This document shows, in pieces, positions 34,031 through 53,739 of a stretch of DNA of 64,000 nt. This DNA comes from Streptomyces seoulensis (GTDB lineage: Bacteria; Actinomycetota; Actinomycetes; Streptomycetales; Streptomycetaceae): contig NZ_AP025667.1 in NCBI RefSeq assembly GCF_022846655.1, forward strand, positions 4,191,001-4,255,000. Direction: 5' to 3'. Under the pieces are notes generated by a model. It worked only from the letters and a program-made list of their open reading frames with translations. It was not told the DNA's origin and did not search any database. Every line of letters starts with the position of its first letter. The first letter of the stretch is position 1. The translations under genes and the position numbers were made by a program.

Positions 34031-34338
34031 CCCGTTACCTCCACAGGTCGTCCGAACGCCGTACGAACCACGAGCGTAGTCGCCCGGACGGGCCGTTGGC
34101 GTCCGCTCCGGGCAGGTGCTGCCCCGCCGGGTGAGCGGGGTCGCGGCCCGGCTGACGAACACCCCGCCCGACCGGCCGGTTTGTGCTCCGCCGCTCGTCA
34201 ACTCGGTTCCAGGTATCGGTTATTGACCAGGAATCAGATAAACCTGTGAATCGGTACGGGTCGCCGGTCCGGGACCTCGGGGCGGCCGAGGGCGGGTGCT
34301 CTCATCCGGCTTTCACCGATGCCTCATACGGTATGCCC
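34031..34338. promoter_or_regulatory. divergent intergenic region, LAL-like gene and DUF2510 gene
   Basis: 308 bases with no supportable gene. It must carry promoters for both flanking divergent genes. The middle part (about 34195-34250) is notably AT-richer than its surroundings and includes TTGACC at 34223-34228 on the plus strand with only weak -10 candidates after it. I see no clear repeats or hairpins. Confidence 0.5.
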
Positions 34339-35453: not shown

Positions 35454-36122
35454 TCATCCCGTGAACGGCGGCCTGGTGTCTGAGCCGGCCTGCGCGGCCG
35501 GATTCCGGGTCAGGCCCAGCGCGGGAAGCACGACGGCCTCCACGAACCCGACCAGGTAGTCGGCGTCGGCATACTGCCCGCACAGCACGGGCCGCACGCG
35601 CAGGACGCCGAACATCATCGCCGGTACGTACTCCAGCGCGGGGTGCCCGGCCGGGACCTCGCCCCGTGTCACGCCCCGCTCCAGCATCTCCTGGAGGGCG
35701 GCGATCTCCGGGTGGACCAGTGCCTCGCGCAGCGCCTCGGCCAGTTCCCGGTCGTCGGTGACGGCGTGCCCCAGCGACTGGAGCAGCCGGGTGTCCTTGC
35801 CGGACCAGTCGCCCGCCGCCCGCGCCGCCTGCCGCAGGTCCTCCACGAGCGAGCCGGTGTCGATCCCGGCGAACCGCACCCGGCGGTTGGCGCGCAGCGC
35901 GGCGGCGACGAACTGGGGCTTGGTCTTCCACTGCCGGTAGAGCGTGGACTTGCTGCACCGGGTGCTGGCGGCGACGCCCTCCATGGTGACGGAGTCGTAC
36001 CCGCACCGGCGGATCTGGTCGAGCACGGCGTCGAAGAACTCCTGCTCACGCTCCGGCGTGAGCTTGGAGCGGCGCGAGGCGACGACCGTCTCCGGTCCGT
36101 CCGCGGCCTGCGACGTCATCAC
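35454..36122 (-). CDS. TetR/AcrR family regulator
   Basis: A 222-residue TetR regulator. N-terminal HTH (about residues 25-70): QEFFDAVLDQIRRCGYDSVTMEGVAAST, then CSKSTLYRQWKTKPQFVAAALRAN, the recognition helix region. The C-terminal part (YVPAMMFGVLRVRPVL) is the ligand and dimer domain. It is divergent from a PAP2 phosphatase/transporter operon, and the shared intergenic region carries repeated near-identical palindromic sites, so autoregulation plus repression of that operon is likely. Confidence 0.9.
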   Translation of the reverse strand: MMTSQAADGPETVVASRRSKLTPEREQEFFDAVLDQIRRCGYDSVTMEGVAASTRCSKSTLYRQWKTKPQFVAAALRANRRVRFAGIDTGSLVEDLRQAARAAGDWSGKDTRLLQSLGHAVTDDRELAEALREALVHPEIAALQEMLERGVTRGEVPAGHPALEYVPAMMFGVLRVRPVLCGQYADADYLVGFVEAVVLPALGLTRNPAAQAGSDTRPPFTG

Positions 36123-36190
36123 TGACTTCCCCTCACTCGTACCGGCTCACTCGTCCTCGGCGTGTGCTGCCCGATCCCAGTGTGTCGCAC

Positions 36191-36261
36191 TGTACCGATA
36201 CGGAAGTGTACCGGTACTCGACCGTATCGGTACACTGGCGTATCGGTACGGAAACGTATCG
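36191..36261. promoter_or_regulatory. TetR operator cluster with overlapping divergent promoters
   Basis: TGTACCGATACGG (36191-36203) is mirrored exactly by CCGTATCGGTACA (36222-36234); CGTATCGGTAC recurs at 36239-36249 and a partial CGTATCG at 36255-36261. GTACCGGTAC lies at the centre. The symmetry also creates a pair of opposed promoters: TGTACC, 18-base spacer, TACACT at 36207-36236 on the plus strand and the mirror image at 36205-36234 on the minus strand. One bound repressor would shut both directions. Confidence 0.8.
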
Positions 36262-36321
36262 CTGAGTTCGGAAGCCGTCCGGGCTCGGCAACGCACCACC
36301 GTCAGTGAAGGGGGCCGGGGG

Positions 36322-37128
36322 ATGAACGCCCGATCCGAGCCCGCCGAAGCGCAACCGGACACGATCGCCCGGCCACCGCTCCTGCGGGAGTTCCTGCTGG
36401 TCGCAGGGCTCTTCTTGGTCTACAAGCTCGGGCGGCGGCTTGCCGACGGCCACACCTCGGACGCCTTCCGCGACGCCCACCGTGTGTGGCACCTGGAGCG
36501 GGCCGTCCATCTGCCCGCCGAGACCGACGTCCAGTCGGCGCTGCTGCACGGCGACGCCCTGGTCCATCTGGCCAACACCTATTACGCGACCGTCCACTTC
36601 CCGGCCACCGTCGCCTTCCTGGTCTGGCTGTACCTGCGCCGCCCGGCCCACTACGTGTGGGCGCGCCGGGTTCTGGCGCTGGTGACGAGCGCGGCGCTGG
36701 TACTGACGTTCACCTTCCCGCTGGCCCCGCCGAGGATGGTGAGCGGCACCGGTCTGCTGGACACGGCCCGGATCTACGGGCCCTCGGTGTACGGGCCGCC
36801 CGCCCGCGACCATCTCTCCAACCAGTTCGCGGCGATGCCCTCGCTGCACTTCGGCTGGGCGCTGATGGTGGCCGTCGGCCTGATCGCCGCCACCCGGTCC
36901 CGCTGGCGGTGGCTGTGGCTGCTGCATCCCCTGGTCACCCTGGCGGTGATCGTGGGCACGGCGAACCACTACTGGCTGGACTCGATCGTGGCGACGGCCC
37001 TGCTGATCACCGCGCTCGCCGTCGTGCACTCCCCGCACCGTACGGCGGGCCCCGAGGGCGCGGGCACCACCGCGCCCCGGCCCCGCCTCACGGCCGGGGA
37101 CACCGCGCTCGCGGGACCGGCCCGATGA
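36322..37128 (+). CDS. membrane PAP2 family phosphatase
   Basis: A 268-residue integral membrane protein with about six hydrophobic segments. PAP2 signature parts are LANTYYATVHFP, then MPSLHFGWALMV near residue 172 (the SxxxH-type motif 2) and ANHYWLDSIVATALL near 217 (motif 3). Relatives are found in inositol-phosphoceramide/lipid phosphatase-like proteins of actinomycetes. Start ATG follows GGGGCCGGGGG. It overlaps the next gene by four bases (ATGA) and shares the regulated promoter region with the TetR gene. Confidence 0.88.
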   Translation: MNARSEPAEAQPDTIARPPLLREFLLVAGLFLVYKLGRRLADGHTSDAFRDAHRVWHLERAVHLPAETDVQSALLHGDALVHLANTYYATVHFPATVAFLVWLYLRRPAHYVWARRVLALVTSAALVLTFTFPLAPPRMVSGTGLLDTARIYGPSVYGPPARDHLSNQFAAMPSLHFGWALMVAVGLIAATRSRWRWLWLLHPLVTLAVIVGTANHYWLDSIVATALLITALAVVHSPHRTAGPEGAGTTAPRPRLTAGDTALAGPAR

Positions 37129-38093
37129 GCGGCGCACTGCTGGTCGCCCTCGGCCTGTCCCTGATATCGGCCGTCGCCTACGCCTCGGCCGCCGTGGCCC
37201 AGTCGAGCCTCGCCTCCCGCGACCTGGGCGCGGGCCTGACCCGGATGCTGAGCACCGGCGCCTGGTGGTCAGCGGTCGGCCTGAACGTGGCCGGCGCGCT
37301 GCTCCACGTCGTCGCCCTGCGGTACGGGCCGCTCACCGTGGTCCAGCCGCTGGGCGCCCTCACCCTGGTCGCGGCGGTGCCGCTCGGGGCGCGGGCGGCC
37401 GGTCGCCGGGTCAGCGCACTGGAGTGGCGCGGCACGGCGCTGACCCTGCTCGGGCTGGGGGCGCTGCTGACGGCCGCCTCCGGTCCGGCGCCCGAGCGCG
37501 CGCTGAGCCTGCCCTCGGCGCTGGCGGTCGCCGTCACGACGACCGCCGTGATCGGCGCCCTGAGCCGGCCCGGCGTCCGGCCGGGCCTCAGGCACGCGAC
37601 CGCGTCCGGGTTCGCCTCGGGTGTCGCCTCCGCGCTGACCCAGACCGTCACCGTGGCGGCCACCGAGGGTTCCGGGCCGGTACTGAGCCCGCTGGTGATC
37701 GTGGTCGCGGTGCTGGTGGCCGCTTTCGCCACCGGCGGTCTGCTGCTGTCGCAGACGGCGTACCGGCGCGGGCTCGGCGCCCCGCTGGCGGTGGTCACCC
37801 TGGCCAACCCGCTGGCCGCCTCGGTGATCGGCCTGACCCTGCTCGGCCAGGGTCTCAACGGCGGTGCCGTGGGCATCCTGGCGGCCCTCGCCGGAGCGGC
37901 CCTGGCCGCCCGGGGCGTGGTCCTGCTGACCCGCGCGACACCGGCCGCCGCTTCCGTACCCCCGCCCGCGCCGGGACCGGACGACGAGGAACATCCCGTT
38001 GCGGCGGTGCTGGCGCTGGAGCCGGGTACGGCGACCGCGGAACCGCGGCTGACGCGGAAGCGGTCGAGGCCGCGGCGGCTGACACGGCTGTAG
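37125..38093 (+). CDS. DMT/EamA-type membrane transporter
   Basis: A 322-residue membrane protein with nine or ten predicted helices in two repeats. The first repeat begins LSLISAVAYASAAVAQSSLASRDLG and includes VALRYGPLTVVQPLGALTLVAAVPLGA, a recognisable motif of the NIPA/EamA-like drug-metabolite transporter family; the second includes GAPLAVVTLANPLAASVIGLTLLG. The C-terminal ~55 residues are a charged, Pro/Ala/Arg-rich cytoplasmic tail. Translationally coupled to the PAP2 gene (ATGA overlap), so co-regulated by TetR. Lipid precursor or drug export is possible; substrate unknown. Confidence 0.85.
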   Translation: MSGALLVALGLSLISAVAYASAAVAQSSLASRDLGAGLTRMLSTGAWWSAVGLNVAGALLHVVALRYGPLTVVQPLGALTLVAAVPLGARAAGRRVSALEWRGTALTLLGLGALLTAASGPAPERALSLPSALAVAVTTTAVIGALSRPGVRPGLRHATASGFASGVASALTQTVTVAATEGSGPVLSPLVIVVAVLVAAFATGGLLLSQTAYRRGLGAPLAVVTLANPLAASVIGLTLLGQGLNGGAVGILAALAGAALAARGVVLLTRATPAAASVPPPAPGPDDEEHPVAAVLALEPGTATAEPRLTRKRSRPRRLTRL

Positions 38094-38100
38094 GCACGCG

Positions 38101-38135
38101 AAGGGCGGCCGGCGCGTCACGCGCCGGCCGCCCTT
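38101..38135. terminator. bidirectional hairpin terminator
   Basis: Perfect 16-base arms (38101-38116 and 38120-38135) with a 3-base loop, followed by TTT on one side and preceded by AA on the other. It ends both the transporter operon and the convergent five-gene operon that runs from 44867. Confidence 0.88.
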
Positions 38136-38158
38136 TCACATGTCCGCAGAGGTACCCG

Positions 38159-38827
38159 TCAGCCCAGGCCGCGCGCGTCCTGCTTCAGCGCGGTGTCCAC
38201 GGTGAGCGCCGTCGCCACGACGAGGCTCAGCAGCGGCTCGGACAGCGGACGGTGGATCTGGAGGACGTAGTTGTCCGCCGAGGTGAACAGCGTCTTGGCC
38301 AGACCTTCCCAGGTCTTGGTGATGCGGGCGATCTCGGTGCCCTCGTGGTCCACGATGGCGAAGTTCCAGGCCCGCCAGTTCTCCGCCTTGATCGCGCCGA
38401 CCTGGTGGCCGTCCACGTTCATGGCGAAGTTGATCTTGCCGATCATGTTCTGCTGGACGATCTCACCGACCTGCGAGCCGTCCGGGCGGGCCACCAGGAC
38501 CCGCGACTTGAAGATCTTCGCGGGGCGGGTCAGCAGCAACTGCGGCTGCCCCTGGGTGTCCCGGATCTCCAGCCGGTGCGTGAGGTACTGGTCCAGGCTG
38601 GAGACGAAGCGCAGGATCTTGCGGAACACGCCCTGCCCGACCTCGACCACGGAACCCAGGTCACGGCCGTTCTGGTCCATGACCTTGTACTCGTTGGTCA
38701 GCTCGATGAGCTTGGCCTTCTGGTTCACCACCAGGACGGGCTCGGTGAACAGGGTGCCGCCGGGCGTCCGGTCCGTACCGTTCGCGTCGGGGTACGAGCC
38801 TGCAGGAATGTTCGATTGCGTGGTCAC
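38159..38827 (-). CDS. phospholipid scramblase/LURP-one-related protein
   Basis: A 222-residue protein of the scramblase/tubby-like beta-barrel type. It shows repeated barrel strands (LFTEPVLVVNQKAKLIELTNEYKVMDQNG, LEIRDTQGQPQLLLTRPAK, SRVLVARPDGSQVGEIVQQN, WRAWNFAIVDHEGTEIARITK) and a hydrophobic C-terminal helix (PLLSLVVATALTVDTAL), matching phospholipid-scramblase-related proteins that bind membranes. It is the last gene of the five-gene operon, nine bases after the DUF4407 stop, and ends before a shared terminator. In this context it may act on or sense lipids together with the SPFH and DUF4407 proteins, which is inference. Confidence 0.85.
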   Translation of the reverse strand: MTTQSNIPAGSYPDANGTDRTPGGTLFTEPVLVVNQKAKLIELTNEYKVMDQNGRDLGSVVEVGQGVFRKILRFVSSLDQYLTHRLEIRDTQGQPQLLLTRPAKIFKSRVLVARPDGSQVGEIVQQNMIGKINFAMNVDGHQVGAIKAENWRAWNFAIVDHEGTEIARITKTWEGLAKTLFTSADNYVLQIHRPLSEPLLSLVVATALTVDTALKQDARGLG

Positions 38828-38836
38828 CGGGGCACC

Positions 38837-40186
38837 TTACCGTGGCTTGATCCGTACCTGACCATTCTGTTCCGGGAATCCGATATTCCGGTCGGGCTCC
38901 TCGCTCAGGAGGGCACGCGTCAGCTCCTCGATGAGGGCGCGGCGCTCCTTCTCGCGGCGGACCCGGGACTGGGCGAGTTCGTGCTCCGCGGCCTCCCGCT
39001 CGTCGGTGGTCCGGGCGCGCAGCAGGGCCAGTTCGGCCCGCCGTCGCTCCCGTGCCCGCTCCTCGTCCGCGCGCCGGTCGGCGTCGCGCTCACGCCGCTC
39101 GCCCGCCAGGTGGTCGTGCAGCGCCTGGTCGTAGGCGCTGACCCCGGACATGAACTTCACCAGGACCGGCAGGGAGTCGAAGACCAGCAGCAGGAGGTGG
39201 AGCACGATGGCGAAATAGCAGGGGTAGAACGCGCTGGTCATGACCGCCCAGAGGGCCTCGGCGCGGTCGAGCAGACCGGTGTCCCGGAGCTCCGTCGCCT
39301 TGTCCGCGCGTTCGGTCCGCGCCGCCGCCATCACCTTGGCGCGGTAGTCGTCGGTGGCCTTCTTCATCCGCCCGGTGAGGGTGTCGATCCGGTTCCGCAG
39401 GGCCGTGGCCTTCGCGCGTTCGGAGTCGACGTCGTTGCCGGAGCGGTACTCGGCGGCCTGCTTGCGGGCGATCTCGCACTGCTGGGTGACGTCCCACCCG
39501 CCGGCCACGCGCTTGTAGTTCTTCTTGGAGCACAGCTCGTTGGAGTCGGCGTCCAGCTTCGCCTGCTGCCGGTCGACGTCGGCGACGTGCGTGGTGAGCT
39601 TCGCCAACTGGTCCTTGACGTCGGTGATCTGGTTCCGCAGCGCCACCGGGGCGCCGCGCACGCCGAGTTGGTACTTCCCGCAGTCGGCGCGGTCCAGCGT
39701 GGTCGTGCCGTCGACCGGATTGCACGCCAGCAGACGGCCGTAGTACGTCTGGACGGCGCGGTCCCGGCCCTCGGTCAGGTGCTTGTCCATCTCAGGGGCG
39801 AACACCTGGAACAGCAGGGGCTCGGCCAGGGCCAGTCCGATCAGGATCGACAGCAGGAGGCGCGGCAGCAGGGCTCGGTTGCGGGACCGGCCGATCTTGC
39901 CGTGGGTGCTGGACACCAGCCAGCTGTCGACGAGGTAGACGAACGCCGTCCACACCGCCCCGGCCGCCACCATGGCCCACGTCGAGGCCCCTTGCAGCAG
40001 CGCGTCCAGGGCCACGGCCGCCGAGATCCCGCCCAGCAGGGCGGTGGCCAGCACGATGCCGCCGTAACGGGTGTAGACGGGGCGCTCGGACGGGACGGTG
40101 TCGAGGACCGGCTCGTGGACGCCTATGCCGGAGCGGAGGAGACGGCCGAGGCCGCGGGGGGCGCGGGTGTGCGGCTCAGTCGCCAT
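38837..40186 (-). CDS. DUF4407 membrane protein
   Basis: A 449-residue protein of the DUF4407 type. Two close hydrophobic segments at the N-terminus (IVLATALLGGISAAVALDALL and AAGAVWTAFVYLVDSWLV, residues 45-90), a third (LLLSILIGLALAEPLLFQVF, about 110-130), then a large extracytoplasmic coiled-coil portion with a few cysteines, a fourth helix (AFYPCYFAIVLHLLLLVFDSLPVLV, about 318-342), and a long charged C-terminal coiled coil reaching the cytoplasm. The start overlaps the upstream coiled-coil gene by 11 bases, so translation is coupled. Function of DUF4407 is unknown; here it is the obvious membrane component of the five-gene unit. Confidence 0.88.
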   Translation of the reverse strand: MATEPHTRAPRGLGRLLRSGIGVHEPVLDTVPSERPVYTRYGGIVLATALLGGISAAVALDALLQGASTWAMVAAGAVWTAFVYLVDSWLVSSTHGKIGRSRNRALLPRLLLSILIGLALAEPLLFQVFAPEMDKHLTEGRDRAVQTYYGRLLACNPVDGTTTLDRADCGKYQLGVRGAPVALRNQITDVKDQLAKLTTHVADVDRQQAKLDADSNELCSKKNYKRVAGGWDVTQQCEIARKQAAEYRSGNDVDSERAKATALRNRIDTLTGRMKKATDDYRAKVMAAARTERADKATELRDTGLLDRAEALWAVMTSAFYPCYFAIVLHLLLLVFDSLPVLVKFMSGVSAYDQALHDHLAGERRERDADRRADEERARERRRAELALLRARTTDEREAAEHELAQSRVRREKERRALIEELTRALLSEEPDRNIGFPEQNGQVRIKPR

Positions 40187-41642
40187 ACTCCTCCCTCCCC
40201 GCGGGACCGACGTCGTACGGGTTCTGCTCGTCGTCCTCGTACCGTTCGCCGTCGCCGGAGGCCCGCGCGCCGGTGCTCCCGGAGCCGGAGCGGGGTGCGT
40301 CCGCCGTGCCGTCGACCGCGGCGGGACCGGGGGTCGGCTCGCCCGCCTCGACCTCCGTGCGGACGTCGTCGTGACCGCTGTCGAGGGTGCCGCCGAGCAG
40401 CTCCTCCAGCAAGCGCTGCATGTCGATGGGCATCGTCGCGGTGTGGCCCTCCTGGACGAGCCTCTTGTACAGCTCGAACTTCATCTCCTGGCGCCGGTCG
40501 GCCCGTTGCCGGTCGTCGCGCTCCTTGCGCAGGGCGTCCTCCCGGCGCTGCCCGTCGCGGTGCCGGCGCTCCTCCCGGCCGGCCTCCAGCTCGCGCAGCT
40601 TCTCCTGGTGCTCCACCTCCCAGCGGCGGTCGGCCCGCTCGGCCTCGATCCGCAGGTCCTCGCGCAGGAGCTTGTCCAGCTTCTCCTGCAGCGCCCGTTG
40701 GGTGTCGTCGCGGCGCTCCTCGGCCTCCCGCAGATCGCGTTCGGCGCTGCCCAGCCGGTCGGCGAGCTGCTCGGCCGTGAGTTCCTTGCGCCGGTAGGCC
40801 CGCCACAGGGCGAAGCGGGAGCCGAGCCGCTCCTCCTGGCCGGCGTCGAGCGACTCCTGCTCGCGTTCGTAGGCGGCCCGCTGTTCCGCGAGGTTCAGCT
40901 CGGCCTCCTGCTCACGCTGCCGCATCTGCTCCTCGTGCTGCTGCTTCAGCGCCACGAGCTGCTGCTGGTACTCCTGTTCCCGCTTGGCACGCTCCTGGGC
41001 GACCGCCTGCTCCACCGCGTCCCGCTCCTGCTGGAGCCTCAACTCCGCAAGTCGCTGCCGCAGTTCGCTGAGCTGGGCCGGAGTGAGCAGGTCCACGCTG
41101 ACGAGCTCGACGGCCATGCCCGGCAGCCGGGGCGGCTGGGCGAGGGCGAAGGCGGTGACGTTGGCGCAGATCCGCTTGGTGACCTCGGCGAGCTGCGCGT
41201 CGCCCTGGGGCACGTACTCCTCGGCGAGCGCCGGACACCCCTGGAGGTAGGAGACCAGCGCGTCGGAGGCGTCGGACGGGCCGCCCTCGCGCATCAGCTC
41301 CACGGCGTCCTCGGCCGTACAGCGGAAGCGGACGCGGACGGCGCAGTCGGTCCCGTCGGCCGAGGGCACCGTGACCATGGCCTCCACCGGGACGTCACGG
41401 CGCCGGTCGACGACGGTCACCGAAGTGGCCCGTACCGCCGTCTCGGAGCGCGGGTCGAGGTCGCCGTGGCTCTCGGCCCAGTCCTCCCCCACCCGGTACA
41501 CGGCGACCTGATGGGGTTCGAGCCGGGGCAGCTCCGAGCGCTCGCGCCGGGCGGTGCCCATGCCGCGCCAGCCACGGGCGGCGGGGGGTTCGAGGGTTCG
41601 GGTCGAGACGACCGGATACGGTGCGCGCGCGGCCTCGCTCAT
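40176..41642 (-). CDS. SPFH/band-7-like protein with long coiled coil
   Basis: A 488-residue protein. Residues about 55-195 resemble an SPFH (stomatin/flotillin) domain: alternating strands with VTVVDRRRDVPVEAMVTVPSADG and VRVRFRCTAEDAVELM, then an alpha/beta half ending PGMAVELVSVDLLTP. Residues about 200-430 are an almost unbroken coiled coil rich in Glu, Gln and Arg, and the last 60 are acidic and disordered. ATG chosen because AAGGG lies seven bases upstream; one base separates it from the stop of the ATPase gene. SPFH proteins oligomerise into membrane-bound cages or microdomains; no membrane helix is visible, so recruitment through DUF4407 is plausible. The SPFH call is by pattern only. 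Confidence 0.7.
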   Translation of the reverse strand: MSEAARAPYPVVSTRTLEPPAARGWRGMGTARRERSELPRLEPHQVAVYRVGEDWAESHGDLDPRSETAVRATSVTVVDRRRDVPVEAMVTVPSADGTDCAVRVRFRCTAEDAVELMREGGPSDASDALVSYLQGCPALAEEYVPQGDAQLAEVTKRICANVTAFALAQPPRLPGMAVELVSVDLLTPAQLSELRQRLAELRLQQERDAVEQAVAQERAKREQEYQQQLVALKQQHEEQMRQREQEAELNLAEQRAAYEREQESLDAGQEERLGSRFALWRAYRRKELTAEQLADRLGSAERDLREAEERRDDTQRALQEKLDKLLREDLRIEAERADRRWEVEHQEKLRELEAGREERRHRDGQRREDALRKERDDRQRADRRQEMKFELYKRLVQEGHTATMPIDMQRLLEELLGGTLDSGHDDVRTEVEAGEPTPGPAAVDGTADAPRSGSGSTGARASGDGERYEDDEQNPYDVGPAGREEYGD

Positions 41643-41643
41643 G

Positions 41644-44100
41644 TCAACACCCTTCATCGCAGCAGAGTTCGTCCAGCAGGGCGCGGATCGCGTCCTGCGG
41701 CTTCTTGTTCCTGGTGAGCCGCTTCAGCTCCGCGCAGAGCGCGCGCCGTTCGGTGGGGTCGGTCACCCGCTCGCCCAGTCCCCGGCCGAGCGCGCGGCCC
41801 ATGTCCACGGTCGACTCGGTGAGCGACGGCAGTGCGCCGAGGTGGTCGGCGAACGCCTTCAGGGCCATGGCGCGCAGCGGCCGGTAGCAGAACGCCTTGG
41901 CCCACAGGTCGAGCAGCGCGCCCCCGCCCTCGGGGTGCAGCACGAAGCGGCGCAGGGCGACGGGCCGGCCGGACGCGTCCCTGATGGCCAGGATCGTCAC
42001 CACGACCTGGTACGTCAGCGACCTCATCGGCGAGCGTCCGGCCCTGGCCGGGAGCCTGTCCAGGCGGTAGGTGAGCAGACCCAGCACCCTCGACGTGTCC
42101 TCGTCGTGGTGGACGAGCAGGGCGAAGTGGTTGGCCAGCGCGGCGGCCGCGAGCCCCTGGCCCTTCTCGTTGGCGATCAGGTGCCACAGCCACTTCACGG
42201 CGTCCGAGGGGAAGCGCACCCCGAGCCAGCCGCTGAAGGCCAGCGCCGCGGTGCCGCGCAGCTCGGGGGACGTGGAGCGGGCCCAGCCGCGGGCGATGTC
42301 GAGGGCGACGGTGTCGAGGCCCAGGTCGCTCTGGCACATGTACCAGAGCACGTAGACGGCCATGGACTGCCCGCGCTGTCCCGCGTGCCCCTGCGCCCAG
42401 GGCACCAGGTATTTGCCGACCACCTCCTCGAAGTCCTTGGTGGCGAGCATCGCGAGGCCCGCGGCCAGGGAGACCTCGAACTCGTCGCCGGCGAGGGTGC
42501 CGGGACTGCACGGCGCCTCCGGCTCGCTGAGCACGGCGCCGAGCCACTTCCGCACGCCGTCCCAGAAGTCGGAGTCGAAGAGGCCGCACAGCACGATGAA
42601 CACCCAACGCCGGTGCGAAGGGGTGGCGAACTCCACGACCTCGCGGACGACCGCGCCCATCGGTACCTGCCGCAGCGCCAGCAGTTCGATGTCCAGCATG
42701 GCCCGCCGGCGGTCGAACAGCGCGGACTCCGCCCCGCCGTCCCGCTTCGCGGCGAGGTCGTTGCCCTTCTGCGTGGCGCCGGAAGCGAGCGAGTTCGAGA
42801 AGGCGTTGGCCTTGCCTCCCGCCGCTCCCTGGGCGAACTGCCGGCCCACATGGGCGTCGAGCAGGGCGAACAGTTCCTCGCAGGACCTGATGCCGCTGCC
42901 CGCGGCGAACGCCACCGTGGTGACCTGGAGAACCTCCCGCATGGTGCGGCCGGGCGCGAGGAACCAGCGCTGCACGGTGTCGTAGGTACCGGTGTCGTAG
43001 TCGTTCCACACCTCCTCGGGAGCGCCGCCCTCGCAGATGCCGTCGGCCACCTCGGCGGCCTTGGCGACGGGGCAGTTGGGCCGGATCAGCTTGACCGCCT
43101 CGGCGATCGTCTCCTCGGGGATCCCGCCGAGCCTGAGCCGGAGCCGCAGCACCTGCTCGGTGGAGGGCGCGCTCCAGGCCACATGGCTGACCGAGGTGGG
43201 CAGTACGCGTTCCATGCGGGGCCGGGTGGTGACGACGAGGTGGGCACGGCTGGCGTGCACGCGCTCCTGCACGCGGCGCCAGGCGAAGTCCGCCTGGGTC
43301 TCGTTGAGGGAGCCTTCCTGGACGCGGTCGAGGACGACATAGCCCTTGCCGGCGTGGAACTCGCGTTCCGCGAGCTGGTCGAGGGTGATGTCCGGGGACA
43401 GCACGATCACGCGGCCGCCTCCGTCCATCGCCTTCTTCAGCAGTGCCACCGCACCCGAACGCCGTCCCGTGCCGGACTCGCCGATCAGGGTCACCACGTG
43501 GTCGGCGCGGAGGGCGGCGAGGGCCTCCGCGAACGCGTCGGGCTCGGCGTGGTGTCGGAGCAGGAGGGCGATCTCCTCCTGCCGCATGGGCCCGGTGGCC
43601 CGGCCCCTGGGAGCGGGGGCGAAGCCCGCGATGCCGGTCACGCCGCCCTGGCCCGTGCCGCCGTACATGTTCTGGTTGACGGTGGTGTTGTAGGTGTTGT
43701 GGAGCGCCGACACCTGCTCGTCCGCCTTGGCGGCCGCGGGCCGGCCGTCCTGGTCGGCGGAGGGCGCGCCCTCCGGGGAGCGAACGGGTTCACCGCCGGG
43801 TGCATCGGGAGTACCGGACCGGGCGGGCCGCTCACCGGATTCGGGGGTTCCCGGCCCGCTCGGCGCCCCGCCCGCCTCCTGCGTCCCGCTGGTGGCGGAA
43901 TTCCTGGCGTCCGGGACTCCGTCGCGTACCGGGCTCGCGGATTCCTTTTCCTCCGTCTCCGGGCCTTTATCGGCGTCGGGCGCTTTCTCCGTTCCCGGTG
44001 TTTTCCACGTTCCGGGCACGGACGGTATGGGGCGGCTCACTTCGCCCTCCCGGCCGGTCTCTCCAGGCGGGTTCTCGGGGAGCGGGATGTCGCCGTTCAT
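41644..44100 (-). CDS. P-loop ATPase with low-complexity N-terminus (STAND-like conflict ATPase)
   Basis: An 818-residue protein I do not recognise as any named family. Residues 1-130 are disordered (Pro/Gly/Glu/Ser). At 134-160 lies an Asn/Gly-rich stretch (NTYNTTVNQNMYGG, then GGVTGIAGF) like the short adaptor motifs in actinobacterial NLR-like proteins. The P-loop GESGTGRRSGA (207-217) has Arg instead of the Walker A Lys; a Walker-B-like YVVLDRV follows at 254-260, then LVVTTRPR like a sensor-1 strand. The C-terminal 450 residues are helical, with repeat-like alpha segments. Coupled by a 4-base overlap to the cyclase-like gene and one base from the SPFH-like gene. Confidence 0.75.
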   Translation of the reverse strand: MNGDIPLPENPPGETGREGEVSRPIPSVPGTWKTPGTEKAPDADKGPETEEKESASPVRDGVPDARNSATSGTQEAGGAPSGPGTPESGERPARSGTPDAPGGEPVRSPEGAPSADQDGRPAAAKADEQVSALHNTYNTTVNQNMYGGTGQGGVTGIAGFAPAPRGRATGPMRQEEIALLLRHHAEPDAFAEALAALRADHVVTLIGESGTGRRSGAVALLKKAMDGGGRVIVLSPDITLDQLAEREFHAGKGYVVLDRVQEGSLNETQADFAWRRVQERVHASRAHLVVTTRPRMERVLPTSVSHVAWSAPSTEQVLRLRLRLGGIPEETIAEAVKLIRPNCPVAKAAEVADGICEGGAPEEVWNDYDTGTYDTVQRWFLAPGRTMREVLQVTTVAFAAGSGIRSCEELFALLDAHVGRQFAQGAAGGKANAFSNSLASGATQKGNDLAAKRDGGAESALFDRRRAMLDIELLALRQVPMGAVVREVVEFATPSHRRWVFIVLCGLFDSDFWDGVRKWLGAVLSEPEAPCSPGTLAGDEFEVSLAAGLAMLATKDFEEVVGKYLVPWAQGHAGQRGQSMAVYVLWYMCQSDLGLDTVALDIARGWARSTSPELRGTAALAFSGWLGVRFPSDAVKWLWHLIANEKGQGLAAAALANHFALLVHHDEDTSRVLGLLTYRLDRLPARAGRSPMRSLTYQVVVTILAIRDASGRPVALRRFVLHPEGGGALLDLWAKAFCYRPLRAMALKAFADHLGALPSLTESTVDMGRALGRGLGERVTDPTERRALCAELKRLTRNKKPQDAIRALLDELCCDEGC

Positions 44101-44867
44101 GCGCGGTACTCATTCACGATGCCGATGACGGAACCGTGTACCGGCGCTTCGAAAACCAGTTCAGCCTTCTGGTCGCGAACCGGCGTCTGCGCGGGGGCGG
44201 CCGGCTGCACCGGAACCGTGGGGACGCCGGGAGCCGCGGGGGCCACCGGGGGCTCACCGCCCTCCAGCGACCCGAGCGCGTGGACGTCGCCACCCGGCAC
44301 CCTGATCCACACCGCGTCGTCGAACTCCTTGGACCGCACCCTGGCCTCGCGGAACTCCTCGGCGCGCAGGGTGGTGTACGCGCCACCGATCACGGTGTGG
44401 AAGACCTCGCGGGAGACCGCCACCGCCAGCACGGCCGACGGGCTGAGCCGCAGCGCCTCCCGCAGCGGCTTGCAGTCGAGGATGCGGGCGGTCTCCACCG
44501 CGCCGTGGTCGGAGAAGCCGCCGCGCGCGGGGACGGCCACACCGTGGTGGAAGGCGGCCCGCAGCCGGAGCCGGGCGTCCGCCTCGCGGCCGTCGTTGAC
44601 CTCGCGCAGCCCGGAGTCGAGGTGGCGGACGAAGTCGTCCACGAGCAGCGGCTCGGACTCGTCGGCGCCCAGCACGCTGAACGCGGAGTCGCCCGCGAGC
44701 TGCGTCTGCCACCGCTCACGCTCGAACCCGACCTCGGTGGCGGCCTGGGTCAGCACGCGGTCGATGGCGTCCTGGATCCAGTGCTGACGCCTCGGGTGGC
44801 TCCGTCCGTACCCTTCCGCGTCCACGGAGAAGAGGGGTCGGCGCGAGAATCCCTTCATTCGATTCAT
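44097..44867 (-). CDS. class III nucleotide-cyclase-like protein
   Basis: A 256-residue protein. Residues 10-165 follow the class III cyclase fold: first strand LFSVDAEGYG with metal-site Asp16, LAGDSAFSVL with second Asp60, then RLRAAFHHGVA and HGAVETARILDC, which matches the G-x-x-V-N-x-A-R element with Arg128 kept but Asn replaced by Glu. After a Pro/Ala-rich linker the tail ends in VHGSVIGIVNEYRA. Both metal Asp residues and the Arg suggest it could still be active, perhaps with changed base preference. It starts the five-gene operon; AAGGA lies seven bases before the ATG. A cyclase-derived sensor without activity is the alternative. Confidence 0.65.
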   Translation of the reverse strand: MNRMKGFSRRPLFSVDAEGYGRSHPRRQHWIQDAIDRVLTQAATEVGFERERWQTQLAGDSAFSVLGADESEPLLVDDFVRHLDSGLREVNDGREADARLRLRAAFHHGVAVPARGGFSDHGAVETARILDCKPLREALRLSPSAVLAVAVSREVFHTVIGGAYTTLRAEEFREARVRSKEFDDAVWIRVPGGDVHALGSLEGGEPPVAPAAPGVPTVPVQPAAPAQTPVRDQKAELVFEAPVHGSVIGIVNEYRA

Positions 44868-45200
44868 GTTCTATTCCTTCGGAATCGTGATCGAATCCCG
44901 CGCGTCGGAACGCCTCGATCTGGAGGGGACAAGCACGATCTGGATGGGACAAGCAGGATTACAGTCGCGCCCATCCGTGGATGCCGCTGTTGCGAAAACG
45001 AGACAGAAACAACCCCGGGTCCGCTGTTGTTCCGACAGCACGGGAATACGTGGTATCAGTCGGCGCGACCCGGAACCCCGTACAAATACGGGATGCGGGA
45101 TCCTTTCCGGGAACCCGTCGAATTAGGTGGTCGCCCGCGCACCGGCGCGCGTTACTGGTCGCACCCCGGCTCGGGGCTCGCACGTCACCGAGGAGACGGC
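44868..45200. promoter_or_regulatory. divergent regulatory region between cyclase-like and Pycsar-like genes
   Basis: 333 bases, with no gene and visibly more AT than the flanks. It holds a 20-base direct tandem repeat at 44917-44936 and 44937-44956 differing at two positions (core GATCTGGA and GGGACAAGCA), and an inverted repeat CCCGTA-caaa-TACGGG at 45077-45092. Both are candidate regulator sites for the two divergent units. No consensus promoter is clear. Confidence 0.65.
44917..44956. repeat. 20-bp tandem direct repeat
   Basis: Two head-to-tail copies of a 20-base unit match at 18 of 20 positions. The period equals about two helical turns, so both copies face the same side of the DNA, as expected for cooperative binding of a regulator 50 bases upstream of the cyclase-like gene. 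Confidence 0.75.
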
Positions 45201-45707
45201 ATGACGGAGCAGACGCAGGGCGGACCGCAGGACGCGGCCGTGATGCTGACGTCGCTGCAGACCACCCATCAGCTCGCCGACGGCAAGGCCGGGGTGCTCG
45301 CCGGGGTGCAGGCGGCGCTGGTGGTGTCCTTCGGGCCCTGGGTCCGTACGGCGCGCTCGGCCTGGGCGCACCACGCGGTGAGCGGGGCGCTGCTGGACGG
45401 GCTGGTGGTGCTGTTCGCGGTGGCCTTCGTGACCGGGGTGGGGTGTCTGGCGCTGGTCCTGCGGCCCCGGCTGTGGCGGCCGGCGTCCTTCAACCGGTTC
45501 AGCGTCCGCGCCCTCTCGGCCACCGCGACCGCACCGGGCGCGCGGCCGGGGCCGGGGCCGGAGGGGACGGAACTGTGGGAGGCGTGCCGGTTCATGGCGG
45601 CGATCACGGTGAAGAAGTGCCGTTATGCCGCCGCCGCCATCGCCTGCACGGCCGCGATGGCCGTCACGGCCGGTCTCTGTGTCCTGCTGCGGGCGTTCTC
45701 CGGCTGA
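45201..45707 (+). CDS. Pycsar TM-effector-like membrane protein
   Basis: A 168-residue membrane protein. It has ADGKAG at residues 26-31 leading into a first helix (VLAGVQAALVVSF), a second helix (LLDGLVVLFAVAFVTGVGCLALVLRPR, about 65-90), a cytoplasmic linker, an amphipathic stretch (CRFMAAITVKKCRYA) and a third helix (AAIACTAAMAVTAGLCVLL). This order, especially AD-x-KAG before helix 1 and the K-x-R/Y helix before helix 3, matches the TM effectors (PycTM) of Pycsar anti-phage systems, which bind a cyclic pyrimidine nucleotide and disrupt the membrane. GAGGAG lies six bases before the ATG. It stands divergent from a cyclase-like gene and convergent with a cyclic-nucleotide-binding regulator. 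Confidence 0.65.
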   Translation: MTEQTQGGPQDAAVMLTSLQTTHQLADGKAGVLAGVQAALVVSFGPWVRTARSAWAHHAVSGALLDGLVVLFAVAFVTGVGCLALVLRPRLWRPASFNRFSVRALSATATAPGARPGPGPEGTELWEACRFMAAITVKKCRYAAAAIACTAAMAVTAGLCVLLRAFSG

Positions 45708-45730
45708 AGTCCCTGTGCGCCGAGGGGGTT

Positions 45731-46456
45731 TCAGTCGAGGTCCGACGGCAGCAGCCGGGCCTCCTCACGCAGCCGGTCCAGGTCGCGGACGGTCGTGGTG
45801 CGGTAGCCGGTGACGATCAGCTCGGCGTCCCGCAGCTCCTTGAGCGCCTTGTGCACGGTCGGCTCGGCCGCTCCGGCGAGGGCGGCCAACTCCGGCTGGG
45901 TGAGGGTGAATCCGAGTTCCACCCCGTCCCGTCCCGGCCGCCCGTGGCTCGCCGCGAGGTCGACCAGGATGCGGGCCAGCCGCTCCTTCACGTTGTAACC
46001 GCGGAATTCCAGGCGCCGGTTGTTGGCCCAGCGCAGCCGCTCGGAGACGATGCCGGTCAGCTCCACGGCCGCGTCGGGGCGGCGCAGCAGGAAGGCGCGC
46101 AGGATCTCGTGGGGTACGGCGCGCGCGGTCACCGGACCGCACGCGGTGACCGTCGCCGTGCGCGGCATGTCACCCACGGCCGCCATCTCCCCGATGATGT
46201 CCCCGCCCAGCCGGATCGCCAGCAGGGACTCCAGGCCGTTCTGCGCGGTCGCGGTGACCTTGGTGAAGCCGGAGAGCAGCAGCAGCGTGTGCCGGTCGGT
46301 GTCGCCCTGGCGGACCAGCAGGTCCCTGGGTTCGAAGCGGCGGGGCCGGCCGAGCGCCAGCAGGTCGTCGAGCGCGGCCTCGGAGAGCCTGCCGAGGTAA
46401 CTGCCGCGCGGCCAGTTGGACTCGTGGTCCGCGTCCCGTGATGCTGCGTAGGTCAC
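45731..46456 (-). CDS. Crp/Fnr family cyclic-nucleotide-binding regulator
   Basis: A 241-residue regulator. The N-terminal cyclic-nucleotide-binding beta-roll contains GGDIIGEMAAVGDMPRTATV, keeping the Glu and Arg that hold the ribose and phosphate in cAMP-binding proteins. The C-terminal winged helix is FTLTQPELAALAGAAEPTVHKALKELRDAELI. It lies 23 bp from the end of the Pycsar-like gene, convergent. Retention of the phosphate cassette argues it binds a cyclic nucleotide, unlike many Crp-fold regulators. A palindrome sits in its 97-bp upstream region. Confidence 0.88.
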   Translation of the reverse strand: MTYAASRDADHESNWPRGSYLGRLSEAALDDLLALGRPRRFEPRDLLVRQGDTDRHTLLLLSGFTKVTATAQNGLESLLAIRLGGDIIGEMAAVGDMPRTATVTACGPVTARAVPHEILRAFLLRRPDAAVELTGIVSERLRWANNRRLEFRGYNVKERLARILVDLAASHGRPGRDGVELGFTLTQPELAALAGAAEPTVHKALKELRDAELIVTGYRTTTVRDLDRLREEARLLPSDLD

Positions 46457-46553: not shown

Positions 46554-48731
46554 TCAGGACGTCTGGTACGCCTCCACCTCGCTCAACTGACCTGCCGGCC
46601 AGCCGGTGTTGCCGCTGACGACCAGCCGCAGATGGCGCAGGCTGGTGCCGCTCGGCAGGGACACGGTGACGGTGTTGCCGCTCGCCGGGTCGAAGCGGTA
46701 GCCCTGCGCCCCGGACACGGTGGTGTACGACGAGCCGTCGGTGCTGCCCTGCACGGCGATGGTCTGCGTACGCGCGCCCCACGCCGAGGACGGCGGCAGC
46801 TTCAGGACGAGCCGGCGGACCGGGTAGGCGGAGCCGAGGTCGACCGTCCAGGACTGCGGGAAGGCGCTGTTGGCCGACTCCCAGTAGGTGTTGGCGTCTC
46901 CGTCCGCCGCCTTGCCGGGGGTGTAGACGTCCTGGGACCCGGTGGCGGTGGCCGGACGGCCCTTGGCCAGGTTGCGGTTGGGGTCCGGCTGGGGGTTGCC
47001 CTGGCCGGGCTGGGGCCAGGTCGAGCAGTCCGCCCAGGTGCTGCTCCAGCCGGAGTTGCCGCCGCCGTCGGTGAGCGAGAAGGTGCCGGAGTTCGCCGGG
47101 TAGGGGCAGTTGTAGACACCGGCGGAGCCGACCTGGGTGGCGCTCACGTTCTTGAAGGCGGCCGCGCCCTGCGCCTCGGCCTGTACGACCACGGTCCCGG
47201 TGTTCTTCACCGTCGCGCCGGTCACGTTGACGTTGCGCACCGGGTAGCCCTGGCCGCCGCCGGAGACGAACTCGAAGGCGCTGTAGGGGCTGTCGGTGAT
47301 CGTGGTGTCGGTGATGTTGACCGTGGCGTTGATGGCGCTGTCGTAGGAGTCGACGCGCAGCGCGCCCATCGGGTGGTTCCAGTTGGGGTTCAGGGCGCCC
47401 GCGCGGACCAGGGTGTTGCCCGAGACGGTGATGGTGCCGGCCAGCGGGGAGAAGGGGTCGAGGAACTTCTGGTTGGAGATGGCGATGCCGCTGCCGAGGG
47501 CGTTGGTGTCGGAGACCAGGTTGTTCTTCACCGAGATGTCGGTGCCGCCGTAGATGGCGATGCCGTTGGCCAGGTTGGGCTGCGAGATGGTGTTGTTCTC
47601 GAAGCTGGAGTTGGAGTCCGGCGCGTACAGGGACCACATGGCGAGGGAGTCGTCGCCCTGGTTGCGCAGGAAGTTGTTGCTGACGCGCACGCCGCGGGCG
47701 TTGCCGTTGAGGTTGAGGCCGTCGGCGGTGGTGTCGAGGACGCGGTTGTTCTCCACGACCAGGTTGTCGTTGTTGCCCGTCAGCCACAGGCCGACCTTCA
47801 GGTGCTGGAGCCACATGCCGGATACCGAGGAGCCCGGGCCGAGCGAGCCGTTCACGAAGTTGTCCGGGCTGGAGTCGACGCGTTCGGTGACCTCGCCGAT
47901 GACCGCGAAGTCCTTCAGGTGGACCCCGCCGGAGGAGTTGGACTGGTCGATGAACCGGGAGCCGCGCACGACCGAGTACCAGTGGCCGGCGCCGCGCAGG
48001 GTCACGTTCTGCACGCCGCTGAGGGAGGAGGTGATCCGGTACTCGCCGGGCGGGATCCAGACCGTGCCGCCCTGCGCGGCCGCTATGGCGTCGCGGAACG
48101 CCTGGGTGGAGTCGCCGCCGCCGCTGGGATCGGCGCCCTTGGAGACGACGGACACCGATCCGGCCGGCTGGGTGGCGGCCGCCGCGGCCTGCTCGAAGTC
48201 CGCCACGTCGACGGTGACTTGTGTGCCGGTGGACTCGAAGGCGACCTTGTCGCCCGCCTGGACGTTCTGGCCGAGCAGCAGCCGGGCGTTGTCGTAGAAG
48301 TGGTGGTTCTTCGCGCCGGCGATCCAACTGGTTTCGATGTAGCTGTACTTGGAGGTGACCGGGAGTGTCCTGGCGATCCTGGTGCCGTTGACGTAGACGG
48401 CGAGCGAGCCGGACTGGCCGTCCGGGACGCTGTAGGCGACGTTCACGGCGTTGGCCGCGCGCGGCACGGTGAACTCCACGCGCTGACCGGAGTTCAGGCG
48501 AACGGCCTGCCGTCCGGACGCCTCCGACGCGAGGGTGGCCTGGGTGTGGTCGGGGCCGATCCTGCTGCCGGTGGTGGTCGCGGACTCGGCCTCGACCGAG
48601 GTGAACGGGAGGGTGGCGCCCGCGGCGGCGTGCGCGGCGGGGGCCACGGCGACCATCATGCCCGCGGCGAGGGCGACGACGGCCCCTACGGCGGGCAGGC
48701 GCCTCGCGTGTCTGGCGGTGCTGCTGTGCAT
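46554..48731 (-). CDS. secreted beta-helix alpha-1,3-glucanase-like protein (GH87 type) with CBM and F5/8C domains
   Basis: A 725-residue exported enzyme. Signal peptide residues 1-37 (ending APAAHAA). Residues 40-165: a CBM35/6-like module (FTSVEAESATTTGSRIG, VDVADFEQ). Residues about 170-545: right-handed parallel beta-helix starting VVSKGADPSGGGDSTQAFRDAI and containing many NN-ladder turns (NNRVLDTTADGLNLNG). After a Pro/Gln linker comes a C-terminal F5/8 type C (discoidin/CBM32) domain (KGRPATATGSQD ... LRLVVSGNTGW). The architecture matches Streptomyces mycodextranase/alpha-1,3-glucanases of GH87, which attack fungal cell-wall glucan. It is last gene of a sugar-uptake cluster. Confidence 0.82.
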   Translation of the reverse strand: MHSSTARHARRLPAVGAVVALAAGMMVAVAPAAHAAAGATLPFTSVEAESATTTGSRIGPDHTQATLASEASGRQAVRLNSGQRVEFTVPRAANAVNVAYSVPDGQSGSLAVYVNGTRIARTLPVTSKYSYIETSWIAGAKNHHFYDNARLLLGQNVQAGDKVAFESTGTQVTVDVADFEQAAAAATQPAGSVSVVSKGADPSGGGDSTQAFRDAIAAAQGGTVWIPPGEYRITSSLSGVQNVTLRGAGHWYSVVRGSRFIDQSNSSGGVHLKDFAVIGEVTERVDSSPDNFVNGSLGPGSSVSGMWLQHLKVGLWLTGNNDNLVVENNRVLDTTADGLNLNGNARGVRVSNNFLRNQGDDSLAMWSLYAPDSNSSFENNTISQPNLANGIAIYGGTDISVKNNLVSDTNALGSGIAISNQKFLDPFSPLAGTITVSGNTLVRAGALNPNWNHPMGALRVDSYDSAINATVNITDTTITDSPYSAFEFVSGGGQGYPVRNVNVTGATVKNTGTVVVQAEAQGAAAFKNVSATQVGSAGVYNCPYPANSGTFSLTDGGGNSGWSSTWADCSTWPQPGQGNPQPDPNRNLAKGRPATATGSQDVYTPGKAADGDANTYWESANSAFPQSWTVDLGSAYPVRRLVLKLPPSSAWGARTQTIAVQGSTDGSSYTTVSGAQGYRFDPASGNTVTVSLPSGTSLRHLRLVVSGNTGWPAGQLSEVEAYQTS

Positions 48732-48790
48732 GTGCTGATCCCTTCGTGGTGGGGGTGCCGGGGATAGCAGGTGGTGCGGGGTGCGACGGC

Positions 48791-50398
48791 TCAGGCGCGC
48801 AGCCAGACCGCCGTGTCCTGCGGCAGACGCCCCGCCTCGTCCAGGGGGCCGCTGCCGAGCAGGAGTGCGGAGTGCGCGGGCAGGTCGACGGCCGTGGCGG
48901 CGAGGTTCACCACGCACAGGGCGCCGTCCGCGCGGGCGAAGGCGAGGACGCCCTCGGGGGCGGGGAGCCAGGTCAGCGGGCCTTCGCCGAAGGCGGGACG
49001 GGCGGCGACGGCCTCGCGGTACAGGGTGAGCATGGAGTGCGGGTCGCCCTCCTGCCGGTCGGCCGCGTAGAGCGCCCAGTCCGCGGGCTGCGGCAGCCAG
49101 GGCTCCTCGCGCGAGCCGAAGCCCGCGTACGGGGCGTCGGCGGTCCAGGGAAGCGGTACCCGGCAGCCGTCGCGGCCGGGGTCGGTGCCGCCCGAGCGGT
49201 GGTGCATCGGGTCCTCGATCCGGTCCACCGGGACGTCCGCCTCCGGCAGGCCCAGCTCCTCCCCCTGGTACAGGTAGACCGAGCCGGGCAGGGCTAGGGA
49301 GAGCAGGGCCGCGGCGCGGGCGCGGCGGGTGCCGAGCGCGAGGTCGGTGGGGGTGCCGAACGCCTTGGCGGCGAAGTCGAAGCCGGTGTCGGTGCGGCCG
49401 TAGCGGGTGACGGTGCGGGTGATGTCGTGGTTGCACAGCACCCAGGTGGCGGGGGCGCCTACGGGTGCGTGCTCGGCGAGGGTCGAGTCGATGGCGGAGC
49501 GCAGCCGGTCCGCGTCCCAGGGGCACGACAGGAAGGCGAAGTTGAAGGCGGTGTGCAGTTCGTCGGGGCGGAGGTAGCGGGCGAAGCGTTCGGCGTCGGG
49601 GAGCCAGACCTCGCCGACGAACACCCCGTCGTGCTCGTCGGCGACCGCGCGCCAGGAGCGGTAGATGTCGTGGAGTTCGTCGCGGTCGACGAAGGGGTGC
49701 GGGTCGGGTGCCCCGGCCAGGTCGGGGAGGTCGGGGTCCTTGGCGAGCAGGGCGGCGGAGTCGATGCGGACGCCGGCGACACCGCGTTCGAACCAGAAGC
49801 GCAGGATGTCCTCGTGCTCGCGGCGGACGGCCGGGTGGGCCCAGTTGAGGTCGGGCTGTTCGGGGGTGAACAGGTGCAGGTACCAGTCGCCGTCGGGGAG
49901 CCGGGTCCACACCGGTTCGGTGGAGCCGACGAACTGCGACGGCCAGTCGTTGGGCGGGAGTTCACCGTGCTCACCGCGTCCGGGGCGGAAGTGGAACAGC
50001 TCGCGCTCGGGGCTGCCGGGACCGGCGGCGAGCGCGGCCCGGAACCAGGGGTGCTGGTCGGAGACGTGGTTGGGCACGATGTCGACGACGGTGCGGATGC
50101 CCAGCTCGCGCGCCTCGGCGATGAGCTTCTCGGCCTCGGCGAGGGTGCCGAAGGCGGGGTCGATCGTCCGGTAGTCGGCGACGTCGTAGCCGCCGTCCTT
50201 CATCGGTGACAGGTACCAGGGGTTGAACCACAGGGCGTCCACGCCGAGTTCGGCGAGGTAGGGCAGTCTGGCGCGTACCCCGGCGAGGTCTCCGGTGCCG
50301 TCGCCGTCGCCGTCGGCGAAGCTGCGCACGTACACCTGGTAGATGACGGCCGAGCGCCACCAGTCGGCCTGCCTGCGGGCATGGCTGGGCTGTGCCAC
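48791..50398 (-). CDS. GH13 alpha-glucosidase
   Basis: A 535-residue intracellular alpha-amylase-family enzyme (no signal peptide). GH13 conserved regions: region I VVDIVPNHV, region II GVRIDSAAL with nucleophile Asp, region III VFVGEVW with acid Glu, region IV LCNHDITR with the transition-state Asp. This pattern fits alpha-glucosidase/oligo-1,6-glucosidase members. GTG start with AAAGGG eight bases upstream. Coded 41 bases after the permease genes, it would hydrolyse the imported malto- or nigero-oligosaccharide to glucose. Confidence 0.92.
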   Translation of the reverse strand: MAQPSHARRQADWWRSAVIYQVYVRSFADGDGDGTGDLAGVRARLPYLAELGVDALWFNPWYLSPMKDGGYDVADYRTIDPAFGTLAEAEKLIAEARELGIRTVVDIVPNHVSDQHPWFRAALAAGPGSPERELFHFRPGRGEHGELPPNDWPSQFVGSTEPVWTRLPDGDWYLHLFTPEQPDLNWAHPAVRREHEDILRFWFERGVAGVRIDSAALLAKDPDLPDLAGAPDPHPFVDRDELHDIYRSWRAVADEHDGVFVGEVWLPDAERFARYLRPDELHTAFNFAFLSCPWDADRLRSAIDSTLAEHAPVGAPATWVLCNHDITRTVTRYGRTDTGFDFAAKAFGTPTDLALGTRRARAAALLSLALPGSVYLYQGEELGLPEADVPVDRIEDPMHHRSGGTDPGRDGCRVPLPWTADAPYAGFGSREEPWLPQPADWALYAADRQEGDPHSMLTLYREAVAARPAFGEGPLTWLPAPEGVLAFARADGALCVVNLAATAVDLPAHSALLLGSGPLDEAGRLPQDTAVWLRA

Positions 50399-50439
50399 GG
50401 TGCGTGCCCTTTCTGTCGAGGTCTGTCGAGGGGGCCGGG

Positions 50440-52262: not shown

Positions 52263-52267
52263 GGCGG

Positions 52268-53620: not shown

Positions 53621-53739
53621 CGGTGGACCCCTCAAGGCAGGAGCAGTGGGCGCCGCACACTCAAGCACCGACGACACCGGGCCGCAAGATGTCGCGCAGA
53701 ATCTGTAATTATTCGACAGCCCGGTGACTCCGGGCGTCC

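Follow-up and report, generated by a model that had tools for sequence, protein, structure and literature searches.

A Streptomyces gene cassette that appears to link a sensor-like switch, a cyclic-nucleotide-making enzyme and a membrane protein of the anti-phage kind

A cassette of six genes, at positions 38837-46456 of the window (the whole 64,000-nucleotide stretch of Streptomyces seoulensis DNA that was analysed), appears to link a sensor-like switch, a cyclic-nucleotide-making enzyme and a membrane protein of the anti-phage kind. It is made up of a Crp-type regulator, a divergent PycTM-like protein, a class III cyclase assigned by its predicted fold, an nSTAND3-like NTPase, an SPFH protein and a DUF4407 protein (Table 1). 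We consider it rather likely that this cassette works as a receptor-gated, namely STAND-gated, alarm of the Pycsar-like type, which would signal through a cyclic mononucleotide to a PycTM-type membrane effector, and its role is probably that of abortive phage defence.

The sequence-only reading of this DNA had proposed that five minus-strand genes, from the cyclase to a scramblase-like gene, form one entire unit that ends in one terminator. The spacing claimed for the five open reading frames is correct (a 4-base overlap, 1 base, an 11-base overlap and 9 bases); as a description of the entire unit, however, the proposal failed, having overlooked the Crp-type regulator and the divergent PycTM-like gene while including a superfluous scramblase-like gene. 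What it had foreseen correctly is a gene set conserved across scattered genomes, in which a probable source of cyclic nucleotide is combined with a STAND-type protein and with proteins associated with the membrane, and the search that it had suggested, for the same gene order in scattered genomes, found this order to recur. The 4-base overlap between cyclase and NTPase hinges on the start codon of the latter: the Streptomyces griseoluteus protein is similar from residue 1 and has the same overlap, whereas the NTPase relatives in the database start at a point that corresponds roughly to residue 106 or lies beyond it. In the case of the terminator, the GC-rich hairpin is stable (positions 38085-38158 fold at -50.8 kcal/mol, z -5.7, with 0 of 200 shuffles equally stable), but its U tract is poor and it is absent from the consensus-scan listing; it is a terminator candidate. 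The sigma-70 scan listed no sigma-70-like site in 37900-45200.

Table 1. Positions of the cassette genes and adjoining features in the window
Feature	Position	Strand	Remarks
Crp/Fnr-type regulator P0048, 241 aa	45731..46456	-	cNMP-binding domain and Crp helix-turn-helix
PycTM-like membrane protein, 168 aa	45201..45707	+	divergent from the cyclase gene
Region between the cyclase and PycTM-like start codons	44868..45200	.	presumably a shared promoter
Class III nucleotidyl cyclase P0001, 256 aa	44097..44867	-	disordered linker and short C-terminal motif; predicted fold
STAND-type NTPase P0002, nSTAND3-like	41644..44100	-	Pro-rich N-terminus, short Gly/Asn-rich motif, long C-terminal region
SPFH (band-7) protein with long coiled coil, P0003/P0034	40176..41642 (P0034 database-entry start)	-	predicted fold
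DUF4407 membrane protein P0004, 449 aa	38837..40186	-	PF14362
Scramblase/LOR-like P0005, flanking backbone gene, not core	38159..38827	-	PF03803
GC-rich hairpin, terminator candidate, 3' of gene 5	38098..38137	-	folding energy

The divergent gene had been hidden because the longest-start choice gives a spurious 635-aa open reading frame (window 43800-45707, plus strand), which shares the frame of the true PycTM-like gene, whose ATG is preceded by GAGGAGA. The encoded protein matches PADLOC PycTM models at 9e-4 and 1.6e-3 and has no Pfam match, falling below the Pfam PycTM cut-off; the proteins at the same place in five related loci (L007 and L041-L044), 39-43% identical to it, are in all five cases above the cut-off of the Pfam PycTM family ("Pycsar effector protein"), and the S. 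griseoluteus counterpart is 90% identical. The same-place counterpart on plasmid NZ_CP107897.1 is annotated as "Pycsar system effector family protein". Where the trio occurs on a mobilizable linear plasmid of Streptomyces sp. NBC_00466, its annotations are Crp/Fnr regulator, "Pycsar system effector family protein" and "hypothetical protein", the last being the cyclase, whose named relatives are also annotated "hypothetical protein". By means of these counterparts in five loci and of the genus-wide linkage described below, the cassette shares with Pycsar a PycTM-type effector beside the cyclase. The Crp-type protein matches PF00027 (6e-17, one of 7 such matches in the 6.5 Mb of this genome) and PF13545 (1.7e-14), and the 863-bp interval between its gene and the cyclase gene is partly conserved in L007 and L041-L044 because the opposite-strand PycTM-like gene lies inside it; we rejected the reading of this conserved stretch of about 860 bp as a non-coding RNA, given that it has no Rfam match and contains that divergent gene. 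At three other loci (L056, L061 and L067, in genomes G091, G101 and G099), a PycTM match lies 240-279 bp downstream of the cyclase gene in the same orientation, and STAND-profile matches are lacking; these are possibly simpler Pycsar-like arrangements.

The cyclase family occurs in 66 of 121 genomes of the genus, at 97 places (the locus of G104 being counted twice), and PycTM (PF18967) occurs in 71 of the 121, at 108 places, of which 105 are above the cut-off. A PycTM gene was found within 10 kb at 48 of the 97 cyclase places, and a cyclase near 48 of the 108 PycTM places, with about 0.3 expected by chance if genomes of 8.7 Mb are assumed; for the remaining 49 cyclase places, a Pfam PycTM is lacking over the same distance of 10 kb, as is such a cyclase for the remaining 60 PycTM places. 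Curated families and a single protein query underlie these counts. Nine of the ten best-scoring cyclases have PycTM close by, the tenth being that of the window, whose protein is under the Pfam cut-off. A Crp-profile match was present in 37 of the 44 other genus regions around cyclase matches (12-20 kb each), on the cyclase strand in 31, with a profile that had been built from two of the 44 regions counted; all profiles built here, SP2 and TM2 included, contain sequences of the searched loci, which match by construction. Trios of Crp, PycTM and cyclase genes were also found on two linear plasmids, and one of them adjoins IS elements and an integrase.

The longer cassette is much rarer, and its patchy occurrence, like that of the trios on plasmids, speaks for the alarm. 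The DUF4407 protein was matched in 5 of 81 genus genomes, that of the window included, and in all four others cyclase, NTPase and DUF4407 protein follow in this order with 26-51% identity; the SPFH protein was matched directly by tblastn in two of these four, and an SPFH profile built from relatives that include those of L007 and L008 also finds the gene in L009 and L010. Streptomyces griseoluteus JCM 4765 (L081) has all seven genes in order at 77-93% identity. The order Crp, cyclase, STAND, SPFH, DUF4407 is shared by L007-L010, L045, L081, L106 (from another family) and L118 (Nonomuraea gerenzanensis), the last two being full cassettes beyond the genus, and the PycTM-like gene precedes the cyclase gene divergently in L007, L081 and L106, but follows it in the same orientation in L008-L010, L045 and L118. 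Among plasmid records, the DUF4407 protein was found in a single Nonomuraea record, which at 11.9 Mb is evidently a chromosome. DUF4407 is above its cut-off in 7 of 121 genus genomes, in each case within about 4 kb of a cyclase gene on the same strand; three further genus genomes have a sub-threshold DUF4407 match, none of them on a contig with a listed cyclase match. As a marker of the cassette beyond the genus, DUF4407 was discarded, since 33 of 197 genomes class-wide have it above the cut-off. Among 20 DUF4407 regions from 20 genomes of other genera, L106 has the full cassette, in L099, L100 and L107 the protein is joined by one or two of its partners, and in 16 by none, one of these 16 (L109) being a region in which our own DUF4407 profile gave no match either; the cyclase-like proteins of L099 and L100 have no second metal Asp. 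Two genes past the DUF4407 gene of L009, at 11344-12330, there is a match to the PADLOC candidate defence family PDC-M09A (1.5e-17).

The naming of the DUF4407 protein was borne out by PF14362 (4.2e-51, 174 bits, above the Pfam cut-off), and four Cys residues between its hydrophobic segments are kept in 5 of 5 aligned sequences. The SPFH-like assignment was likewise upheld by structure prediction: in a model of middling quality (mean pLDDT 77, pTM 0.45), the N-terminal domain has a predicted SPFH fold, with Foldseek matches to erlin, prohibitin, stomatin, HflKC, flotillin and vault proteins (best E 7.9e-6, probability 1.00). The TM-scores are about 0.2 for the whole chain, low because of the long helix, and 0.5 against the isolated stomatin SPFH domain. 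A relative, P0047, bears the name Band 7 in its source record, and in the window protein itself neither a Pfam band-7 match nor a hydrophobic segment was found. In another related locus (L075, minus strand, 3500-6700), the C-terminal half of an SPFH-like protein and the next gene look vWA-like by eye, a pair that possibly has a link to vWA conflict systems.

The alternative that best survives these data, unlikely as we consider it, is a cyclic-nucleotide circuit for development or envelope homeostasis, in which the Crp-type protein would be the main receptor, the cyclase would report the state of the envelope, the SPFH and DUF4407 proteins would keep the membrane in order or mend it, and the PycTM-like protein would be a gentle channel. 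Such a circuit agrees with the Crp-type gene in most of the other genus regions, with the commonness of the cyclase family and with the SPFH fold, SPFH proteins being membrane organisers. It is harder to reconcile with the rarity of the DUF4407 cassette, with a STAND gene that varies by locus, with related trios carried on plasmids, and with PycTM-like orthologues that belong to a defence effector family.

The cyclase-like assignment of the sequence-only reading is supported by the predicted structure, which makes the protein a class III nucleotidyl cyclase by fold. It was missed by the Pfam, NCBIfam and PADLOC models, and three relatives were missed by Pfam and PADLOC; in a PADLOC search up to an E-value of 1 it matched no PycC profile, the sole match being AbiI at 0.0098, and the PADLOC matches of the cyclases of L007, L008 and L010 include no PycC profile. 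The cyclase is therefore not filed as Pycsar. A phmmer search against the PDB and a search of PHROGs were uninformative, and there was no match in phage records. As in Pycsar, the class III fold comes with two metal-binding Asp residues: among 52 sequences, both Asp are kept in 50, R128 in 52 and K180 in 50. The residue four before R128 is Asn in 3mr7, where it has a role in catalysis, Val in the window protein, and Asn in 9 of the 52 sequences. This last variation counts against the alarm and would fit a second and quite improbable alternative, that the cyclase homologue is a catalytically dead nucleotide-binding adaptor and that the membrane module of SPFH and DUF4407 proteins is set off by the STAND protein without an intermediate; in its favour, several cNMP cyclases of conflict systems are called catalytically inactive in the available text of Kaur 2020 (PMC7159879). 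The well-kept Asp, Arg and Lys residues argue against it, and the linked genes for cNMP-binding and PycTM-family proteins suggest that there is a product. In L050, L053 and L055, the cyclase homologues have, by eye, hydrophobic and possibly membrane-spanning ends instead of the C-terminal motif described below, and the proteins encoded next start with Gly-rich stretches.

The scramblase-like protein was correctly named, with PF03803 at 1.8e-18 and 67 bits, above the Pfam cut-off (phmmer against the PDB was uninformative), and was rejected as a member of the cassette. In the fetched regions L114 (G003) and L115 (G011), its counterparts, 89% and 65-75% identical, adjoin the same PAP2-type gene (window 35944-37128) and no cassette genes; G003 has a weak cyclase-family match on another contig, and G011 has none. 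Among the other cassettes, the gene is present in S. griseoluteus alone. Judged by this gene content, it is a neighbour next to which the cassette settled, even should transcription of the cassette now extend into it. The weakest alternative, a five-gene operon whose scramblase-like executioner would disturb lipid asymmetry, is very improbable, since against the 9-base gap on the same strand and the 93% identical S. griseoluteus protein at the same place stand the two cassette-free regions with the same flank and the lack of a scramblase-profile match in all other cassettes but that of S. griseoluteus. A 949-aa AAA_16 and TPR protein is encoded near the cassette (window 31352-34201, minus strand), and both cassette-free regions retain a relative at this flank; at the other flank (window 47554-54738) there is a cluster for an alpha-amylase, a solute-binding protein and a LacI regulator, which is unmatched in the 19.5-kb stretch of G003 around the empty site.

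How the alarm could be gated is suggested by the NTPase and by its relation to the cyclase tail. The naming of the former as an ATPase is uncertain: it matches nSTAND3 (PF20720, 4.4e-5), but the score of 23.7 bits is under the 27.2-bit cut-off, and in its P-loop, GESGTGRRSG, Arg takes the position of the Walker-A Lys. Precomputed PF20720 is carried by 4 of 9 relatives, and Arg replaces Lys in 13 of the 17 STAND matches with a P-loop-like motif, with 5 more having no such motif; given this degenerate P-loop, the switch may bind nucleotide weakly or may not hydrolyse it. In L041 (9920-14302), L042 (3598-8961), L044 (9666-13064) and L117 (8765-14017), the trio of Crp, divergent PycTM and cyclase is followed by dissimilar large STAND-like or TPR proteins, and from the same trio with differing large proteins the receptor seems exchangeable.

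The cyclase ends in a Pro/Ala-rich linker followed by a short Gly/Val/Asn-rich motif, and in many related loci the protein encoded next starts, past a linker of its own, with a motif that resembles the cyclase tail; in L077 and L080, about 25 residues are near-identical between the two, and by eye L106 has such a resemblance as well. We compared cyclase tails with the N-termini of the next open reading frames by local-alignment scores, 13 of 45 loci being dropped because the next frame was missing or shorter than 400 residues. For the resulting 32 pairs, the true-pair scores sum to 1869 against a permuted mean of 1170 (sd 58; 0 of 20,000), and for the 18 pairs with a STAND-profile match to 1319 against 790 (sd 61; 0 of 20,000 permutations as high), in alignments that do not depend on motif limits set by eye and that also take in the Pro- and Gly-rich linkers. 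Twelve of these 18 score above all 200 shuffles of their own tail, and six do not, namely those of the window, L007, L060, L065, L071 and L075. In the window, the direct motif match has a p of 0.13, with motif stretches chosen by eye and hence biased in favour. With small profiles, the window tail is like other tails (5.8 bits, above 200 of 200 shuffles) and its STAND N-terminus is like other N-termini (5.5 bits, above 200 of 200), while the cross-match is at noise, the N-terminus lying below 26 of 200 shuffles and the cyclase tail giving no score. With the direct match weak and the cross-match at noise, the pairing in the window itself is taken from homology only. Across the family, the match of tail to N-terminus has, at the level of sequence, the layout of amyloid signalling motifs.

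In the mechanism that we propose, the class III cyclase would be kept from acting in the resting cell. Together with the SPFH scaffold and the DUF4407 protein, whose Cys-bearing loop may face outside and sense damage, the STAND protein is probably anchored at the membrane; it would sense phage or envelope damage and assemble, and its N-terminal motif would then recruit or template the matching cyclase tail, uniting cyclase monomers. The cyclic nucleotide so produced would cause the PycTM-like protein to open or disrupt the membrane, so that the infected cell stops growing or dies, and would also bind the Crp-type regulator, by which the divergent promoter is probably controlled. What we observe is the gene content, its conservation, the linkage to PycTM, the assigned folds, the kept metal Asp residues and the tail matching from locus to locus across the family; the enzyme activity, its product, its trigger, the order of these events, the role in defence and the tail contact in the window we infer. 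More tentatively, and with somewhat less than even confidence, we suggest the general principle that a prokaryotic NLR/STAND receptor activates a nucleotidyl cyclase whose matched tail it templates in a prion-like way. This would bring together two principles of immunity, an amyloid signalosome and a cyclic-mononucleotide messenger, with an SPFH/DUF4407 platform that senses or serves as scaffold and with a PycTM-type effector; the pairs would diversify through their matched motifs, insulating the cassettes from each other within one cell.

All these parts are of known kinds: a Pycsar effector, a STAND receptor, an SPFH scaffold and a motif pairing. According to the available text of PMC11224242, Pycsar combines a pyrimidine cyclase with a cyclic-pyrimidine receptor, for example PycTM or PycTIR, and its cyclases dimerise head to tail, with the active site lying where the two monomers meet. 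The cassette resembles it in that a cyclase of class III fold lies close to a membrane protein of the PycTM family and in that the cNMP-binding domain of the Crp-type protein is similar to that of PycTIR (PADLOC 2.6e-12), and differs from it in a cyclase with no PycC profile match, in the added STAND NTPase, SPFH, DUF4407 and Crp-type proteins, and in tails that are matched to the next protein in related loci. It is also similar to BASS, the NLR/STAND amyloid signalling motifs of PMC8086366 and PMC12261475 as far as the text of these sources goes, since in related loci a C-terminal motif is echoed near the N-terminus of a neighbouring STAND-type protein; here, in contrast, the partner that bears the motif is a nucleotidyl cyclase, and the word cyclase does not occur in the main text of either source. 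In the available part of Kaur 2020 (PMC7159879), fusions of cNMP cyclases with Band-7 domains are described in conflict systems of multicellular bacteria, as are CRP-like regulators, and the vWA-MoxR/VMAP systems of that text share with the cassette the cNMP cyclase, Band-7 domains, CRP-like regulators and multicellular actinobacterial hosts; the cassette has separate genes, unlike the domains fused in one effector protein there, and vWA, MoxR and VMAP had no Pfam match in the window cassette or in the scanned neighbouring open reading frames. Compared with HflKC, flotillin and stomatin scaffolds, the SPFH protein has the same N-terminal fold followed by a long helix, and is different in that no hydrophobic segment was detected and in that it sits in a signalling cassette. 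Among the titles and abstracts listed from the open-licence literature, neither this gene set nor a STAND protein that is motif-paired with a separate cyclase and PycTM was described.

In summary, a cyclase family is widespread in the genus and yet its tested copies escape the standard models, and DUF4407 gains a functional context there, at all seven of its above-cut-off genes. To our knowledge, the triggering of Pycsar-type cyclases is poorly understood, and a cyclase tail matched to the adjoining STAND-type protein offers a directly testable answer. If true, this would be a bacterial pathway that unites NLR-like sensing with a second messenger.
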